Virus record (IMG/VR): IMGVR_UViG_3300028829_001063
Location: 1-41,957 of that record
Direction: 5' to 3' (one strand)
DNA length: 41,957 bases
Source of the DNA: a virus
In this document: one piece after another, positions 3,056 through 41,957 of the stretch
Layout of the letters: the number at the start of each line of letters is the position of its first letter
How positions within the stretch are numbered: position 1 is the first letter of the stretch
The notes under the pieces: generated by a model
Databases searched by the model: none
What the model saw: the letters and a program-made list of their open reading frames with translations, nothing else
What the model was told of the DNA's origin: nothing
Translations under genes and position numbers: made by a program

Positions 3056-3810
3056 TGTGGAAAGATATGGCTAAAGCCTTAGACTGTGGCACTAAGCGTA
3101 AAATTATGTGCTGTGGTAGCTCACCCTCTGCCCTGATATCTAATAACAGATTCGGTATCAGGTTCCATTGCTTCAGGTGTACTGATTTCAATACCTTTAT
3201 ACCTCATGGTAAGCGTAGTGTTGCTGAGATACTTGCCGCGCGTAAAGCAAGTAATGAACTTAAAACAAGCCTAGCTAAACCACAGCGAGCAATACCCCTT
3301 ACTGACCCTAGTGTACCTACAGAGGCGCATGCTTGGGTACTACAGGCAGGATTGCTTCCAGAGGATGCTAGTAGTACTTATGGTATGTCATATGACCCTT
3401 ACACTAGACGGGTACTTATACCTCTGGAAAATGGTTTCTTGGCTAGGGCTGTGTTTAATGAACGACCTAAGTATATCAAATCCTCAAAAGCAAGTGTTTA
3501 TGAGTTACCCGTAAATGACTCGACAGTTGTAGTTACTGAGGATATATTATCCGCTATAAAAGTTAATTCATTAGGATACAGTACCCTTGCTATACTGGGT
3601 ACGGCTGTATCCCCTACCATTGCAAGTAGGATAGCACGCTATAAAAATATTATTATATGGACAGATAGCGATAAAGCTGGAGATGCTGCTTATGTTAAGT
3701 TGCGTAAAAAGTTAGCCCTGTATCCCGTCAGTGTCAGGCGTATAGTAACGGATGATGACCCTAAACTCATTCATAAAAAAACAATAAGAAAATTAATGGA
3801 GACTATATGA
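3052..3810 (+). CDS. DNA primase (zinc ribbon plus TOPRIM)
   Basis: 252 aa, corresponding to the N-terminal primase half of T7 gp4. It would make the RNA primers for lagging-strand synthesis. Cysteines 20/21 and 40/43 fit a zinc ribbon for template recognition. A TOPRIM domain follows, with the catalytic acidic residue in VVVTEDILSA (E163) and the metal-binding pair in IIWTDSDKAGD (D205, D207). The protein ends without a helicase domain; the helicase is a separate gene 3.5 kb downstream. The start ATG overlaps the previous stop, and its stop overlaps the nrdA start (ATGA), so it is in one operon with the reductase genes. Confidence 0.9.
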   Translation: MMWKDMAKALDCGTKRKIMCCGSSPSALISNNRFGIRFHCFRCTDFNTFIPHGKRSVAEILAARKASNELKTSLAKPQRAIPLTDPSVPTEAHAWVLQAGLLPEDASSTYGMSYDPYTRRVLIPLENGFLARAVFNERPKYIKSSKASVYELPVNDSTVVVTEDILSAIKVNSLGYSTLAILGTAVSPTIASRIARYKNIIIWTDSDKAGDAAYVKLRKKLALYPVSVRRIVTDDDPKLIHKKTIRKLMETI

Positions 3811-5753
3811 AAATTAAAATAGATAAACACAGAGATAGCCTATTAGAAAGTTATGCTGTAGGTATGTTAAAAGATTTCTACCTATTAGATACAGAGCAGT
3901 CGCCACAAGAGGGATTTGCTAGGGCTTCTACGGCTTGGGCAGGTGGTGATAAGAAACTAGCACAGAGGCTGTACGATTATGTAAGTCAAAAATGGTTTAT
4001 GTTTGCCAGCCCCGTACTATCCAATGCCCCTGCAGAAACTAAGCCTAAGGCGTTACCTATATCATGTTTCTTAACTTATGTACCAGATACTGTAGAGGGA
4101 TTGATAGAACATAGCAGTGAACTTCGCTGGCTGTCTGTTAAAGGTGGTGGCGTGGGAGGCCATTGGGATGATGTTAGAACTGTGTCCGATATAGCCCCTG
4201 GCCCGATTCCATTCCTACATACTGTAGACGCTGATATGATAGCCTATAGGCAGGGTAAGACACGTAAGGGGAGTTATGCTGCTTATATGTCAGTACATCA
4301 TCCTGACCTAATGGAGTTCTTAAATATAAGAGTTCCTACAGGTGACGTTCAGCGTAAGGCTTTGAATATACATAACGCCATCAATATCACTAATGAGTTC
4401 ATGAGAGCTGTGCAGGATGACCTAGAGTATGAGCTAAGAGACCCTAAGGATAACTCTGTTAAAGAGAAACTAAAGGCTCGTAAGGTATGGGAGCGCATAA
4501 TGGAGGTACGCTTCAGGACAGGCGAGCCGTATCTGAACTTCATAGATACTGCTAACAAGTTTTTACCTAGAGCTTTAAGAGATAAAGGTTTAAAAATACA
4601 CGGCTCTAATCTGTGCAATGAGATACACTTACCTACCAATAAAGATAGAACTGCTGTGTGTTGCTTATCCTCACTTAACTTGGAATACTATGATGAGTGG
4701 AAAGATACCTCTATAGTAGAAGACCTAGTAACTATGTTAGATAATGTATTAACGTACTTCATAGATAACGCCCCTGATGTGCTTAGTAAGGCTAAGTATT
4801 CCGCTATGAGAGAGCGTAGCATAGGGTTAGGAGCTATGGGATTCCATAGCCTATTACAGCAGAAGGGTATCCCTTGGGAAAGTGTAGAGGCTAGTGTAAT
4901 TAATCATGACGTATTCAGTCTAATTAAGGATAGGGCTGTAGCTCAAAGTAGAGTATTGGCTAAGTCCAGAGGTGAGTATTTAGATGGTGTAGGTACAGGC
5001 AAAAGGCACAGTCACTTATTAGCGATAGCCCCTAACGCATCTAGTTCAATTATACTATCTACATCCCCATCTATAGAACCTGTTAAGGCTAATGCTTATA
5101 CGCATAGGACTAGAGCAGGGTCATTTTTGGTTAAGAATAAATACTTAGAGAAGTTGTTAGAAGACAAAGGCGTCAATACTGATAGCGTATGGACTTCTAT
5201 TATAACCAATAAAGGTTCTGTACAACATCTGAAGTACTTAACAGACGAAGAGAAAGCTGTATACAAAACAGCTGATGAACTTAACCAATCTTGGGTAGTT
5301 AGACATGCCTCTGATAGACAGCCTTATATATGTCAGGGCCAGTCTGTTAACCTATTCTTTCCTAGTGGGGCTAGTAAGGCTTATGTTAATAGGGTACATA
5401 TACAAGCATGGGCTGATGGTCTTAAGGGGCTATACTATCTAAGGACTGAGAGTACTGCTAGGGCAGAGAATGTATCTGAGAAAGTTGAGCGTGTGGCCTT
5501 GAAGTCTGATAACAGAAGCATTATATATGGTAAGGACGATTGCCCATACTGTCAATTAGCTAAGGTGGAACTTACATTGAGAAACATTGATTACGAATAC
5601 ATATCCCTAACGGATATTAATAAGACTGCTAGTGAAGTAACAGGCAGAGATGTTTATACAGTACCCCAGATATACATAGATGGACAATACATAGGAGGAT
5701 ACGCTCAACTGATGGAAACTGAAGATGATGATTGCCTAGCGTGTGAAGGATGA
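3807..5753 (+). CDS. nrdA: Ribonucleotide reductase class I large subunit with inserted glutaredoxin
   Basis: 648 aa. Reduces ribonucleoside diphosphates to dNDPs to feed phage DNA synthesis. Family residues visible: the catalytic NxCxE set N268, C270, E272; the redox pair C87 (PISCFLTY) and C285 or C286 (AVCCLSS); and the tyrosine relay Y543-Y544 in GLYYLRT. No N-terminal ATP-cone is present, so dATP feedback inhibition may be absent. After residue ~565 comes a glutaredoxin domain with CPYC (579-582) and TVPQIYIDG, and then the usual NrdA redox tail CxxC at 643-646 (CLACEG). The reductant domain is thus built into the enzyme. It partners with NrdB at 5815. The start overlaps the primase stop and is preceded by AATGGAGACT. 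Confidence 0.95.
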   Translation: MKIKIDKHRDSLLESYAVGMLKDFYLLDTEQSPQEGFARASTAWAGGDKKLAQRLYDYVSQKWFMFASPVLSNAPAETKPKALPISCFLTYVPDTVEGLIEHSSELRWLSVKGGGVGGHWDDVRTVSDIAPGPIPFLHTVDADMIAYRQGKTRKGSYAAYMSVHHPDLMEFLNIRVPTGDVQRKALNIHNAINITNEFMRAVQDDLEYELRDPKDNSVKEKLKARKVWERIMEVRFRTGEPYLNFIDTANKFLPRALRDKGLKIHGSNLCNEIHLPTNKDRTAVCCLSSLNLEYYDEWKDTSIVEDLVTMLDNVLTYFIDNAPDVLSKAKYSAMRERSIGLGAMGFHSLLQQKGIPWESVEASVINHDVFSLIKDRAVAQSRVLAKSRGEYLDGVGTGKRHSHLLAIAPNASSSIILSTSPSIEPVKANAYTHRTRAGSFLVKNKYLEKLLEDKGVNTDSVWTSIITNKGSVQHLKYLTDEEKAVYKTADELNQSWVVRHASDRQPYICQGQSVNLFFPSGASKAYVNRVHIQAWADGLKGLYYLRTESTARAENVSEKVERVALKSDNRSIIYGKDDCPYCQLAKVELTLRNIDYEYISLTDINKTASEVTGRDVYTVPQIYIDGQYIGGYAQLMETEDDDCLACEG

Positions 5754-9983: not shown

Positions 9984-12218
9984 ATGTACTTAGTGTTCGA
10001 TAGTGAGACCCAGATACATAAGAAGTATAAGCGTACTGCTAATCCTTTCATACCTGAGAACTACGTAGTAGCTAGGGGATGGAAGAAAGAAGGAGATGCA
10101 CAGAACTCTGTGCAGTTCTACAAACCTTCCCAGGATAACTGGTTAGTGATTGACGATGATGTAACTGTACTAGTAGGACACAACATTAAGTTCGATTTAC
10201 TTTACGAGATGCAAGCTGGGAACCCGTATCTACGTGAGTTCTATAAGCGTGGTGGTAGTATCTGGTGTACGCAGTACGCTGAGTACTTACTGAATGCTAT
10301 GCAGCGACAGTATCACATGAACTCTATGGATGGTATTATAGAAACATATGGAGGTAGAAAGAAAATAGATGGAATGAAAGCCTTGTGGCAAGCAGGAGTA
10401 CAGACCGCAGACATTGACCCAGAGCTAGTCAAAGATTATTTGATTGGTACTGAGGCTGAGGGCAGGAACTCAGGCGACATAGGCAACACGGAACTAATAT
10501 ACCTTGGGCAACTTAAATCTGCCCAGACACTAGGCATGACAGAATCATTACGTTTACGTATGGATGGACTTGCAGCAACAACTGAGATGGAATACAATGG
10601 GCTTAAGGTATGTACTACCACAGCCAAGAAAGACTTATCACTTCTCAATGACCAACTGAAAGCTGCCAAGAAAGACCTGAGTAAATACATAGCAGATATA
10701 CCTGAGGAAGTAGGATTCAAGTGGTCCTCTACCGTATGTAAGTCTGCTATAATATATGGTGGTTCAATACGCTACCGTGTACGTGACACCTACTTAGACG
10801 AGAAGACAGGTAAACTAGCAAGACTCAAGGCTACAGAGAAGTGGCCCCTAGTTAATGCAGTACCTGTAAAACCAGAGCTGCTAGGTACACAAACACAAGA
10901 TGTATTTCTGTCAGGAAAAAACAAGGGTAAGCTTAGGTTTAAGAATGTAGCTGTGGAAGGAGAGCTGAAGACTAGGCTACAAGATAGATACTATGACTTG
11001 CCAGGATATGTTAACCCTACTGAGGTGGGCGCTGAGAAAACTAAGAACACTGATGGCAGGGGTAATGTACTTTACTCAACTGATTCAGAGACAATGATTA
11101 TGTTAGGTAACTCAGACGTACCCTTCCTTAAAGCGTTAGCTGAGAAGATTAGATTAGACAAGGAGATAGGTACGTACTACGTAACTGTAGATGGTAATGG
11201 TATCATGAAAGGTATGCTGACTTGCGTAAGTCCTGAGGATAATGTCCTACACCACATGCTTAACCATACTACTACAGTAACAAGCAGACTATCTAGTTCT
11301 AATCCTAACTGTCAAAATATACCGAAGTCACCTTCGCGTGTCAAAGCTATGTTCGTATCCAGATTCAAGGACGGTATGGTGGGAGAGATAGATTACTCCC
11401 AGCTAGAAGTTGTAGTTCAAGGGCTGCTTACTAATGACAAGCAGCTAGTCTCTGACTTGATTAATCGTGTAGACTTTCACTGCAAGCGTGTATCCGCTAA
11501 GTTTAATATAGACTACAAGGATGCTGTGAAGTGGTGTAAGGATGAGACTGACCCGAACTACAAGACATGGCAGCCACGCAGACAAGGTGCTAAGGAGTTT
11601 AGTTTCCAACGTACCTATGGCGCAGGGGCTAGTACCATTGCACTATCAACAGGTATGTCCATTCAGGATGTAGAAGAGTTGATAGAGGCAGAGAATAAAC
11701 TCTATCCAGGCGTTATAAAATTTAATGCTGATGTAGAGCGTACAGTTACTGCTAGTGCTCAGGGATTCAGAGACCCTCTCATGGGATACCGAGCATTCAG
11801 GAGAGGCGAGTGGCAGTCACCCACGGGTACAATGTACTCATGGAGAACATATGATGCACCATCCTTTCTCAAGAAGCGTGGTATCATAGACACGTTCAGT
11901 CCACCTGAGCTTAAGAACTATCCTGTTCAAGGCACAGGCGGTGAGATAGTACAACTAGTACTAGGTAAACTATGGCGTTACTTCATGAAGAAAGATAACT
12001 GGGATGGTAAAGCGTTCTTAGTTAACACAGTACATGATTGTGTGTGGTTCGATATGGATGCGTCAGTCGCAGAAGAAGTCTTAAAGACTGCTAAAATTAT
12101 TATGGAAGGAGTACCAACTTATCTAAAGAAACATTTTAACATAGACTGTCCTGTCCCATTCCCTGTGGATGTAGAGATGGGTAGGAATATGTTAGACCTA
12201 CATCACTTAGAAGCTTAA
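9984..12218 (+). CDS. Family A DNA polymerase with 3'-5' exonuclease
   Basis: 744 aa, about the size of T7 gp5 (704). The exonuclease domain at the N-terminus shows motif I FDSET (D6, E8) and motif II VGHNIKFDL. The polymerase domain shows motif A GEIDYSQLE (D470), motif B RQGAKEFSFQRTYG (R533, K537, F541) and motif C TVHDCVW (H684, D685). The residue equivalent to E. coli Phe762 and T7 Tyr526 is phenylalanine (F541), unlike T7. The exonuclease residues appear intact, so proofreading is expected. Start ATG 9984 follows TTGGAGGAGTAA. A phage promoter overlaps its stop codon. Confidence 0.95.
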   Translation: MYLVFDSETQIHKKYKRTANPFIPENYVVARGWKKEGDAQNSVQFYKPSQDNWLVIDDDVTVLVGHNIKFDLLYEMQAGNPYLREFYKRGGSIWCTQYAEYLLNAMQRQYHMNSMDGIIETYGGRKKIDGMKALWQAGVQTADIDPELVKDYLIGTEAEGRNSGDIGNTELIYLGQLKSAQTLGMTESLRLRMDGLAATTEMEYNGLKVCTTTAKKDLSLLNDQLKAAKKDLSKYIADIPEEVGFKWSSTVCKSAIIYGGSIRYRVRDTYLDEKTGKLARLKATEKWPLVNAVPVKPELLGTQTQDVFLSGKNKGKLRFKNVAVEGELKTRLQDRYYDLPGYVNPTEVGAEKTKNTDGRGNVLYSTDSETMIMLGNSDVPFLKALAEKIRLDKEIGTYYVTVDGNGIMKGMLTCVSPEDNVLHHMLNHTTTVTSRLSSSNPNCQNIPKSPSRVKAMFVSRFKDGMVGEIDYSQLEVVVQGLLTNDKQLVSDLINRVDFHCKRVSAKFNIDYKDAVKWCKDETDPNYKTWQPRRQGAKEFSFQRTYGAGASTIALSTGMSIQDVEELIEAENKLYPGVIKFNADVERTVTASAQGFRDPLMGYRAFRRGEWQSPTGTMYSWRTYDAPSFLKKRGIIDTFSPPELKNYPVQGTGGEIVQLVLGKLWRYFMKKDNWDGKAFLVNTVHDCVWFDMDASVAEEVLKTAKIIMEGVPTYLKKHFNIDCPVPFPVDVEMGRNMLDLHHLEA

Positions 12219-12236
12219 TGCTTCTCTATAGAGAAC
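12215..12236 (+). promoter_or_regulatory. Phage RNA polymerase promoter 1
   Basis: TTAATGCTTCTCTATAGAGA with the expected start at G12231. Compared with the T7 consensus it keeps CTATA at -5 to -1, the C and T at -7 and -8, and the G at -11. The copy at 17000 is identical over 20 bases, and related copies lie at 40173 and 40391. It overlaps the polymerase stop codon and drives the ssDNA-binding, exonuclease, endonuclease and RNA polymerase genes. Confidence 0.85.
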
Positions 12237-12282: not shown

Positions 12283-13176
12283 ATGACTAACTCATTACTA
12301 AACGACATTAAAGAACTAGCATCTTCTGGTTCATTAGAAAACCAAACAGTAACTAAATCTGCATACGTAAGACCTGTAACACCTGAGGGTGTAACTACAG
12401 CTAGGCTTATAGGATATGTTGAATTAGGATATCAACCTCAGAGACCATATCAGGGACAAGAGAAACCTGATGCACCTATGGTAACATTAACATGGGAGCT
12501 TAACGGCCCAGCCTACATGAAGAATGTAGCTAAGGATGGGGAAGCTGAGAAGATAGTACCAACAATTCATAGAGAAACAATTAAGCTTTCTACTAATGAA
12601 CGTGCTAAGTACTTTAAACTGTTTAATAAAATGCGTAGACCTAACTCGGATGTCGTTCACATGGCACAGATGGTAGGGTCAGGATGCATAATAAGAATAA
12701 AACATAACACCTCAAAGAAGGACCCTAGTATTAAGTACGCTAACATCTATACTCCTGTAGATGGCTGGATGGTTTCACCACCTATCGAAACATCTGCAGC
12801 TACTAATGAGACTAGAGAAGTTCCTGTACCTGCTGCTGTCGGACCATTACAAGTATTCCTTTGGTCTGCACCTAGCATGGACCAGTGGAACTCACTGTAC
12901 CAAGACGGTACATATACCAGAAAGGTTGATGGTGTTGATGTAGAACTAAGCAGAAACTTCGTACAGTTTAAAATACTAGGTGCATCTAACCTAAGTGGTT
13001 CTAAGCTAGAGAGTATGCTGATTGAGAACAATGCACTCAAGACTACACTGGAGGCTAAGGCTATATCAGACTCGGCTTACAACAACACTAAACCTGTTGT
13101 AGTAGAGACCCCTGCCCCTGTAGCAGTAGCTGCAGCAGTAGAGGATAACCCTCTAGAGTTACTTGGTCTTGCATAA
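12283..13176 (+). CDS. Putative single-stranded DNA-binding protein
   Basis: 297 aa. No clear family match by eye, but it sits between the DNA polymerase and the exonuclease, where T7-like phages carry an ssDNA-binding protein. The middle is beta-rich with basic and aromatic residues. The end is a flexible Ala/Pro/Val linker followed by an acidic tip (VEDNPLELLGLA), similar in style to the acidic tails through which such proteins contact polymerase and helicase. It is the first gene after promoter 1, with AACGGAGCTAAT before the start, and is likely highly expressed. The function is inference from position and tail. Confidence 0.55.
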   Translation: MTNSLLNDIKELASSGSLENQTVTKSAYVRPVTPEGVTTARLIGYVELGYQPQRPYQGQEKPDAPMVTLTWELNGPAYMKNVAKDGEAEKIVPTIHRETIKLSTNERAKYFKLFNKMRRPNSDVVHMAQMVGSGCIIRIKHNTSKKDPSIKYANIYTPVDGWMVSPPIETSAATNETREVPVPAAVGPLQVFLWSAPSMDQWNSLYQDGTYTRKVDGVDVELSRNFVQFKILGASNLSGSKLESMLIENNALKTTLEAKAISDSAYNNTKPVVVETPAPVAVAAAVEDNPLELLGLA

Positions 13177-16999: not shown

Positions 17000-17021
17000 T
17001 TAATGCTTCTCTATAGAGATA
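17000..17021 (+). promoter_or_regulatory. Phage RNA polymerase promoter 2
   Basis: TTAATGCTTCTCTATAGAGA, identical over 20 bases to promoter 1, with the expected start at G17016. It lies between the RNA polymerase stop and a strong AAAGGAGG ribosome binding site and would drive the whole structural block. Confidence 0.88.
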
Positions 17022-40172: not shown

Positions 40173-40194
40173 TTAGTGCTTCTCTCTGAGGATA
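40173..40194 (+). promoter_or_regulatory. Phage RNA polymerase promoter 3 (phiOR-like position)
   Basis: TTAGTGCTTCTCTCTGAGGA: shares TTARTGCTTCTCT with the other three. The initiation end is CTGAGG instead of TATAGAG, so the start (around 40188-40189) and strength may differ. It follows the last late gene, as T7 phiOR does. Confidence 0.75.
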
Positions 40195-40390: not shown

Positions 40391-40412
40391 TTAGTGCTTC
40401 TCTCTAGGGAAG
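40391..40412 (+). promoter_or_regulatory. Phage RNA polymerase promoter 4 (phiOL-like position)
   Basis: TTAGTGCTTCTCTCTAGGGA with expected start G40407 and initial transcript GGGAAGGG, the most T7-like start of the four. It would transcribe the AT-rich stretch, the structured RNA, the hammerhead and the early genes, and could prime left-end replication as T7 phiOL does. Confidence 0.85.
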
Positions 40413-40557: not shown

Positions 40558-40671
40558 GGTAAAATAAAAATAAATTCAATTATTTTGTATTTTTCGCTTG
40601 CAATCAAATTAAGTATATGGTTTAAGTAAATCAACAAATAACAAAACGGAGTTTACATATAGCAGATATTC

Positions 40672-40869
40672 ACTAAATCGGGTTTAGTCGACGCCCTCGC
40701 ATAAAAGTCCTGACTCGCGTCCGTCGGAGGTTTTCGGACGAATTGTAAAAGCATACGTTTCTGAGCAATGCGTAGCGTCTAGGGTAAGGCCGATGACGTG
40801 AGACAGAGGCCTGAGCTTTTAACTAGTAGGGAGGACGGGGAGCAAAATAAACCGTCAGACATGCGTGTC
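40672..40869 (+). ncRNA. Candidate structured RNA released by the hammerhead
   Basis: About 200 nt, GC-rich against an AT-rich surround, with successive hairpins: 672-677/683-688 (last three digits of 40xxx), 718-723/735-740 (CGTCCG with CGGACG) or alternatively 690-694/717-721, 751-757/771-776 with a bulged A, 787-791/808-812 (AGGCC with GGCCT), 834-838/852-856 (GACGG with CCGTC), and 858-861/866-869 (GACA-TGCG-TGTC). The last ends exactly at the hammerhead cleavage site. No open frame with a good ribosome binding site spans it. The 5' end is unknown. The function is inference only. Confidence 0.5.
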
Positions 40870-40912
40870 GTATAGTATTTGTAACTATGCCTGATGAGTA
40901 ACAACGAAACAC
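40865..40912 (+). ncRNA. Type III hammerhead ribozyme
   Basis: Self-cleaving RNA with all core elements in order. Stem III strand GUGU (40865-40868) and cleavage nucleotide C40869 (site GUC). Stem I GUAUAGU (40870-40876) with ACUAUGC (40884-40890), seven pairs with one U-G and a 7-nt loop. Core CUGAUGA (40891-40897). Short stem II GU (40898-40899) with AC (40904-40905) and loop AACA. Core GAA (40906-40908). Stem III ACAC (40909-40912). General base G12 is G40906, general acid G8 is G40896. Cleavage falls between 40869 and 40870, 57 nt before the start codon at 40927. The two-pair stem II and four-pair stem III are short compared with the satellite-RNA hammerhead. Confidence 0.87.
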
Positions 40913-40926
40913 AGAGAGAAAATAAC

Positions 40927-41256
40927 ATGACTAAAATATCAAACAAAGAAATAAGAGCAAAAGTAGAATTCATGGAAGAATTCGACAATAAAAACAGTAG
41001 TTGCTACGGCAGACGCCTTGAGGAGGCAGGCCTTTATGTAGTATATTCATATGGGGAACATTGGCCGCTATTTGTCTATGATTGGAGAGTTAACCAATGG
41101 TATGAGAATAATAGTAAATACGGAAATACTACTAGCAGACATGCCGCGCACAGCAGGCCATATGATTTGACTACATCAGCTAAGGCCAATGGTTTTATAG
41201 AGATGAGCGTCGCGGAAATTAAAGAGTTTATAAACCGTAGAATAATACTAAACTAA
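40927..41256 (+). CDS. First early gene, conserved hypothetical
   Basis: 109 aa. ATG 40927 is preferred because CAGAGAGAAAATAAC precedes it; the in-frame ATG 40894 lies inside the hammerhead core. The segment YVVYSYGEHWPLFVYDWRVN with WYENN...TTSRHAAHSRP resembles a small family common in phages and their hosts, without a known role. The mRNA leader would begin at the hammerhead cut with a 5'-hydroxyl. The C-terminus ends ILN followed by a repeated leader. Confidence 0.7.
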   Translation: MTKISNKEIRAKVEFMEEFDNKNSSCYGRRLEEAGLYVVYSYGEHWPLFVYDWRVNQWYENNSKYGNTTSRHAAHSRPYDLTTSAKANGFIEMSVAEIKEFINRRIILN

Positions 41257-41767: not shown

Positions 41768-41957
41768 CACAAACAAAGAATCCCAGAGTATACCAATAAT
41801 ACAAGTAGACGAGACAGCATATAGAACTAAGGACTTTCCATCCTTTGAAAGCTTTTATAGGCATAGTGTCGATAATGTGATAGTGTTTTCAATAGATGGT
41901 GCTGATTGGGTAGAATATGGGGAGAATGTAGAAAACCCAACAAACAAATCCACAACA
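41760..41957 (+). CDS. Hypothetical early protein, 5' part (continues at base 145)
   Basis: ATG 41760 follows ATGGAGAATAACA. The frame runs to the contig end and, through the 144-bp overlap, on to the stop at 526-528, giving 193 aa. The first 18 codons (MTNTNKESQSIPIIQVDE) exist only at this end. No known domain is recognised. Confidence 0.8.
   Translation, partial: MTNTNKESQSIPIIQVDETAYRTKDFPSFESFYRHSVDNVIVFSIDGADWVEYGENVENPTNKSTT
41814..41957. repeat. 144-bp terminal redundancy (right copy)
   Basis: Identical to bases 1-144. Removing one copy gives a closed circle of 41813 bp in which the early operon is continuous. Confidence 0.95.

Follow-up and report, generated by a model that had tools for sequence, protein, structure and literature searches.

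A type III hammerhead ribozyme heads the early operon of a T7-like phage known from IMG/VR record IMGVR_UViG_3300028829_001063, whose full 41,957 nucleotides (the window) were analysed here. We think it likely that the early transcript cuts itself at this ribozyme, between 40869 and 40870, releasing a leader RNA and fixing the 5′ end of the early mRNA. An initial annotation, made from the sequence alone, had proposed a complete hammerhead of this type at the head of the early operon, and the comparative evidence described below bears that proposal out.

The window encodes a T7-type RNA polymerase (phrog_414, E 5e-259), a DNA polymerase, a portal, an internal virion protein and a terminase. The combination of a single-subunit phage RNA polymerase with T7-like replication and virion genes identifies the phage as an autographivirus. 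The assembly is circularly closed, with positions 1-144 repeated at 41814-41957, and the ends of the record are not physical genome ends. A gene for the large subunit of ribonucleotide reductase (3807-5753) lies upstream of the replication genes.

The hammerhead motif upstream of the first early gene

The features of the early region, in the order in which they occur, are listed here.

40391-40410, + strand: phage RNA polymerase promoter-like repeat TTAGTGCTTCTCTCTAGGGA, an exact 20-nt repeat with a second copy at 40173-40192
40598-40626, + strand: probable host-type promoter, TTGCAA, 17 nt, TTTAAG (weak match), placed by the alignment of relatives
40658-40832, + strand: leader RNA core inside an insert, identical at 169 of 175 positions in the relative L015 and absent from four close relatives
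40834-40856, + strand: hairpin GACGG/CCGUC directly 5′ of the ribozyme, read as UGCGG/CCGCA in L015 (two compensatory pair changes)
40865-40912, + strand: type III hammerhead ribozyme, from sequence, Rfam, covariation and a phage covariance model
40869-40870, + strand: predicted cleavage site after C17, from its position in the hammerhead core
40870-40890, + strand: stem I and loop I AUUUGUA (7 nt), from sequence and the covariation alignment
40880-40903, + strand: loop I/loop II pseudoknot, 40880-40882 with 40901-40903, covarying across phages (pairs 17-40 and 19-38 of phage alignment A3)
40914-40919, + strand: Shine-Dalgarno-like GAGAGA, starting two bases after stem III; the AGAGAGA module precedes other early genes too
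40927-41256, + strand: first early gene, an open reading frame of 109 aa

The motif reads GUGU-C-GUAUAGU-AUUUGUA-ACUAUGC-CUGAUGA-GU-AACA-AC-GAA-ACAC. Stem III has 4 bp (GUGU 40865-40868 with ACAC 40909-40912), stem I has 7 bp including one U-G pair (GUAUAGU 40870-40876 with ACUAUGC 40884-40890), and stem II has 2 bp (GU 40898-40899 with AC 40904-40905) closed by a 4-nt loop II, so the stem lengths of 7, 2 and 4 bp and the type III order first reported were right in every coordinate. All invariant core positions, also claimed at the outset, can be read directly: C3 U4 G5 A6 N7 G8 A9 in CUGAUGA (40891-40897), G12 A13 A14 in GAA (40906-40908), and the pairs A15.1-U16.1 and G10.1-C11.1, with the core invariant across the phage alignment. 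Position 17, which may be any base except G, is C40869. Three helices meet at the junction with stem III open, an arrangement backed by covariation. The distance of 57 nt to the first early start codon was confirmed when counted from the predicted cleavage site at 40870 to the ATG at 40927.

The earlier reading had overlooked a pseudoknot between loops I and II, formed by the pairs U40880-A40903, G40881-C40902 and U40882-A40901. The pairing of the two loops covaries in other phages, and the contact is the one expected of a fast hammerhead. The motif is real and, judged by its features, is a hammerhead of type III.

A strict type III descriptor search of the window returned 40865-40912 as its single site. 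Among 400 Markov shuffles, 12 contained any descriptor match and two contained one with at least the 13 pairs of the window site. The covariance-model check proposed in the initial annotation gave a divided answer: no Rfam family matched the window at its gathering score, but Hammerhead_3 (RF00008) produced a sub-threshold match of 20.7 bits against a cut-off of 48.5 (E 0.061 when 401 nt were searched, E 0.0015 when the entire genome was searched with this family alone). Two other phage hammerheads also fell below gathering with RF00008, at 26.3 and 27.9 bits, and RF02276 (Hammerhead_II) did not match the window with E values of up to 1 allowed. Because 20.7 bits lies below the cut-off, the site is filed as a hammerhead by its features and not as a member of RF00008. 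It shares with that family, the tobacco ringspot satellite type, the type III topology, the core and the GUC cleavage triplet, whereas the subfamily to which the window site belongs has a 2-bp stem II with a tetraloop, a fixed 7-bp stem I and a 7-nt loop. Since its Rfam-matching members all score below threshold, this subfamily is probably under-annotated. Taken alone, the descriptor and Rfam evidence is suggestive only; the comparative evidence decides.

For the isolated sequence, a non-hammerhead fold was better by 1-6 kcal/mol in nearest-neighbour energy, a measure that ignores the tertiary contact, and in longer contexts the competing fold contains a GACA/UGUC hairpin. As folding energy gives no support, covariation was used in its place.

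Covariation and distribution of related phage hammerheads

A pattern scan of IMG/VR with CTGANGAGTN{4}ACGAAAC found 51 sites in 50 stretches, and about 18 of the sites, that of the close relative L015 included, have both other stems, a 7-bp stem I and the same spacing. Since the core and stem II were prescribed by the pattern, independent evidence comes only from stem I, stem III, the loop and the pseudoknot, and the invariance of stem II in 14 of 14 aligned sequences is a product of the search. In the alignment of these 14 sequences (the window, L015 and 12 from other phages), 98.7% of cells pair, compared to 29-54% in slid controls, and two-sided compensatory changes occur at 12 of 17 pairs. 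The outer two of the three loop I-loop II pairs covary, one appearing as G-C, C-G, A-U and U-A and the other as U-A and C-G. A covariance model built from the 12 other phage hammerheads, with the window left out, scored 61.3 bits on the window (E 4.5e-18) and 66.6 bits on L015.

A second IMG/VR scan enlarged the set to 32 distinct sequences. All three pseudoknot pairs are present in 30 of the 32, a start codon with a Shine-Dalgarno-like site lies 1-36 nt 3′ of the ribozyme in 30, and many have a hairpin directly 5′ of it. A slightly stricter pattern run against 257 Gb of bacterial and archaeal genomes matched once, in an Aliivibrio MAG, which marks the subfamily as a phage feature in the collections scanned. 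A blastn search with a 48-nt phage hammerhead query gave no match. Tandem hammerheads of the same subfamily were also seen on two phage contigs, one of 195 kb (L077; coding-strand positions 4807, 5109 and 5738) and one of 68 kb (L098; coding-strand positions 3846 and 4165), each preceding a small gene.

A T7-type polymerase was found in one of 16 and in none of 29 other hammerhead-bearing records, many of which are fragments. The sole such record, G013 (L064; 44.9 kb), has a TerL only 34% identical to that of the window. Along the coding strand of G013, a long and mostly non-coding stretch that contains a TTGACG element comes after TerL (9020-7386), and after it come a first hammerhead at 5609-5560 and a small gene; two weaker hammerheads, at 5318-5267 and 4976-4940, precede the next small genes. 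The layouts of the window and G013 show early genes headed by a hammerhead in two distantly related lineages. None was found in 22 named autographiviruses, including T7, SP6, phiKMV, P-SSP7 and Syn5, where the best scores (10.9-11.2 bits) were at chance level. Given these 22 phages and four close relatives that lack one, the ribozyme is not essential to T7-like phages.

The insert in close relatives and the early leader

Close relatives were collected from IMG/VR through TerL and the first early gene. Only L015 keeps both leader and ribozyme. Of the 48 ribozyme positions, 4 differ from the window: two changes, U40876 to C and A40884 to G, compensate each other within one pair of stem I, a third (G40889 to A) turns U-G into U-A, and the fourth (U40895 to A) falls at core position 7, where any base is allowed. 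In four others (L003, L005, L007 and L008), the promoter region and the shared TCAACAAATAAC are retained, as is the first gene, but the entire block of about 255 nt that lies between them in the window (approximately 40651-40907) and contains the ribozyme is missing. L006 has the first ~30 nt of the block in common with the window and then diverges before its contig ends. The phage covariance model found no hammerhead in L003, L006-L008, L011 or L012. Relatives that lost the core and kept the flanks had been named at the outset as a point against the motif, and on this the relatives are divided, four having lost the entire insert while L015 preserves the ribozyme through compensated change. 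Because L015 keeps insert and ribozyme with compensatory changes, we regard the ribozyme as an accessory element, not a decayed one.

The claim of a phage promoter upstream is supported by the exact 20-nt repeats TTAGTGCTTCTCTCTNNGGA at 40173 and 40391, for which shuffles predict none. Weaker promoter-like copies (TTAATGCTTCTCTATAGAGA) occur at 12215-12234, before a gene at 12283, and at 17000-17019, before structural genes. At the position aligned with the weakly matching host-type promoter, L007 and L015 have TTTACA-16-TATGTT just before the shared TCAACAAATAAC, and we infer a transcript start near 40630.

Between this putative start and the ribozyme, identity with L015 is 97% in the leader core, against 85-90% in flanking DNA, which suggests that the core is under stronger constraint than its surroundings. 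At the same place, L012 (5910-6175) and L011 (4673-4937) carry another GC-rich leader, which shares with window 40700-40740 the element GCAUAAAA and a hairpin with loop UCGGAGGNUUU and a covarying stem. A pattern scan for this leader hairpin gave 11 matches, of which only L015, L011 and L012 (= L048) were judged real. The leaders of L011, L012 and the window are possibly a new leader RNA family of these phages; a four-sequence alignment of the two leader types yielded no trustworthy common structure, and a blastn search with the leader found nothing useful among 50,697 phage records. The first early protein had only sub-threshold matches in Pfam and PHROG. A second structured RNA of the early region was noted at 533-651, where the 131 nt of 530-660 fold at -43.2 kcal/mol (z -4.0) into a long interrupted stem with UACCCUGCCU closing with AGGUAGGGUA. 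It has no Rfam match, is 86-90% conserved in relatives without the ribozyme, and could serve for processing of the RNase III type or act as an sRNA.

The conserved core and the shared GCAUAAAA and hairpin of L011 and L012 would also fit an active ribozyme that serves mainly to free the leader RNA (40630-40869) as a phage regulatory RNA, with the mRNA end as a by-product. We consider this unlikely, though worth keeping in view, since the leaders of L011 and L012 come without a ribozyme, ribozymes of the same subfamily sit between genes that have no such leader, and single-sequence folding of the window leader is no better than that of shuffles. Still less probable is a translation switch in which stem III or the alternative fold hides the ribosome site until cleavage opens it. 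By a mechanical rule, 15 of the 32 members have a Shine-Dalgarno-like site that overlaps stem III, and an alternative fold does compete in the window, but the window's own site lies outside the 4-bp stem III and half of the members show no overlap.

The absence of the ~255-nt block from relatives with conserved flanks, and the similar TAACAAC..AC(G)GAG stretches on either side of it, would be expected of a retrozyme-like remnant of a mobile or circular RNA element inserted into the leader. Such an element requires two flanking ribozyme copies, and the window has one ribozyme match and no second copy of the leader anywhere in the genome, which makes this origin very improbable. Chance resemblance, in which a ribosome-binding module and a hairpin mimic a hammerhead, is strongly disfavoured and has hardly any weight: TAACAAC...AGAGAGA is indeed the phage's usual module, so that part of the 3′ half of the motif is not independent evidence, and shuffles do yield occasional descriptor matches where Rfam yields none at gathering, but the score of the independent covariance model, the compensatory changes in L015 and the covarying pseudoknot all stand against it.

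Predicted processing of the early transcript

In the reading that we prefer, self-cleavage that sets the end of the early mRNA, the leader would fold as the polymerase passes and the RNA would cut itself between C40869 and G40870. The 5′ product would be a leader RNA of ~240 nt that carries a 2′,3′-cyclic phosphate and has the GACGG hairpin close to its 3′ end, and the 3′ product an early mRNA with a 5′-hydroxyl and the stem I hairpin at its very 5′ end. RNase E is slowed by 5′ hairpins and by ends that are not monophosphorylated. As the ribozyme lies downstream of the phage promoters and of the likely host promoter, both kinds of transcript would be cut alike and receive one uniform, probably protected, 5′ end. 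The suggestion that cleavage separates host-made from phage-made transcripts was therefore dropped.

In T7, RNase III cuts the early RNA just upstream of gene 0.3. That site likewise has phage and host promoters upstream of it, immediately precedes the first early gene and splits leader from mRNA; in the T7 record, the phage promoter, the host promoters and gene 0.3 are laid out in the matching way. The difference is in the agent and the end it leaves, a host protein and a 5′-phosphate in T7 as opposed to predicted self-cleavage and a 5′-hydroxyl here. Self-cleavage may take the place of T7's first RNase III cut. We give somewhat less than even weight to the tentative proposal that, in some T7-like phages, this hammerhead subfamily has replaced host RNase III in cutting the start of the early transcript and, in one lineage, in cuts between early genes as well.

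Phages and prophages are known to carry hammerheads, and a stem II of 2 bp and pseudoknots occur in each of the three types described; tandem arrays of them cut in vitro, and one array did so in E. coli (Perreault et al. 2011, PMC3088659). That survey proposed processing into operon- or gene-length mRNAs and left the biological function open (PMC3088659). The hammerheads it describes have the same core, 2-bp stem II and pseudoknot as the window's and likewise sit before or between phage genes; compared by description, the survey stresses (pro)phage regions near integrases or ardA, whereas the window site is in a T7-like early-operon leader (PMC3088659). The theta (HDV-like) ribozymes of gut phages are also phage-encoded and self-cleaving, but belong to another ribozyme class and are tied to tRNAs and recoding (PMC10879173). 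In the open-licence literature we found no report of a hammerhead in a T7-like early leader. Hammerheads that divide phage operons have been described before; the T7-like early leader is a new and informative place for one.

The simple timetable of a T7-like phage, together with near relatives that have the ribozyme and others that lack it, offers a clean test of what early self-cleavage is worth. If the ribozyme has indeed replaced the host RNase III cut, early mRNA would mature without the help of host enzymes, and the structured leader RNA that is released would have a function of its own.
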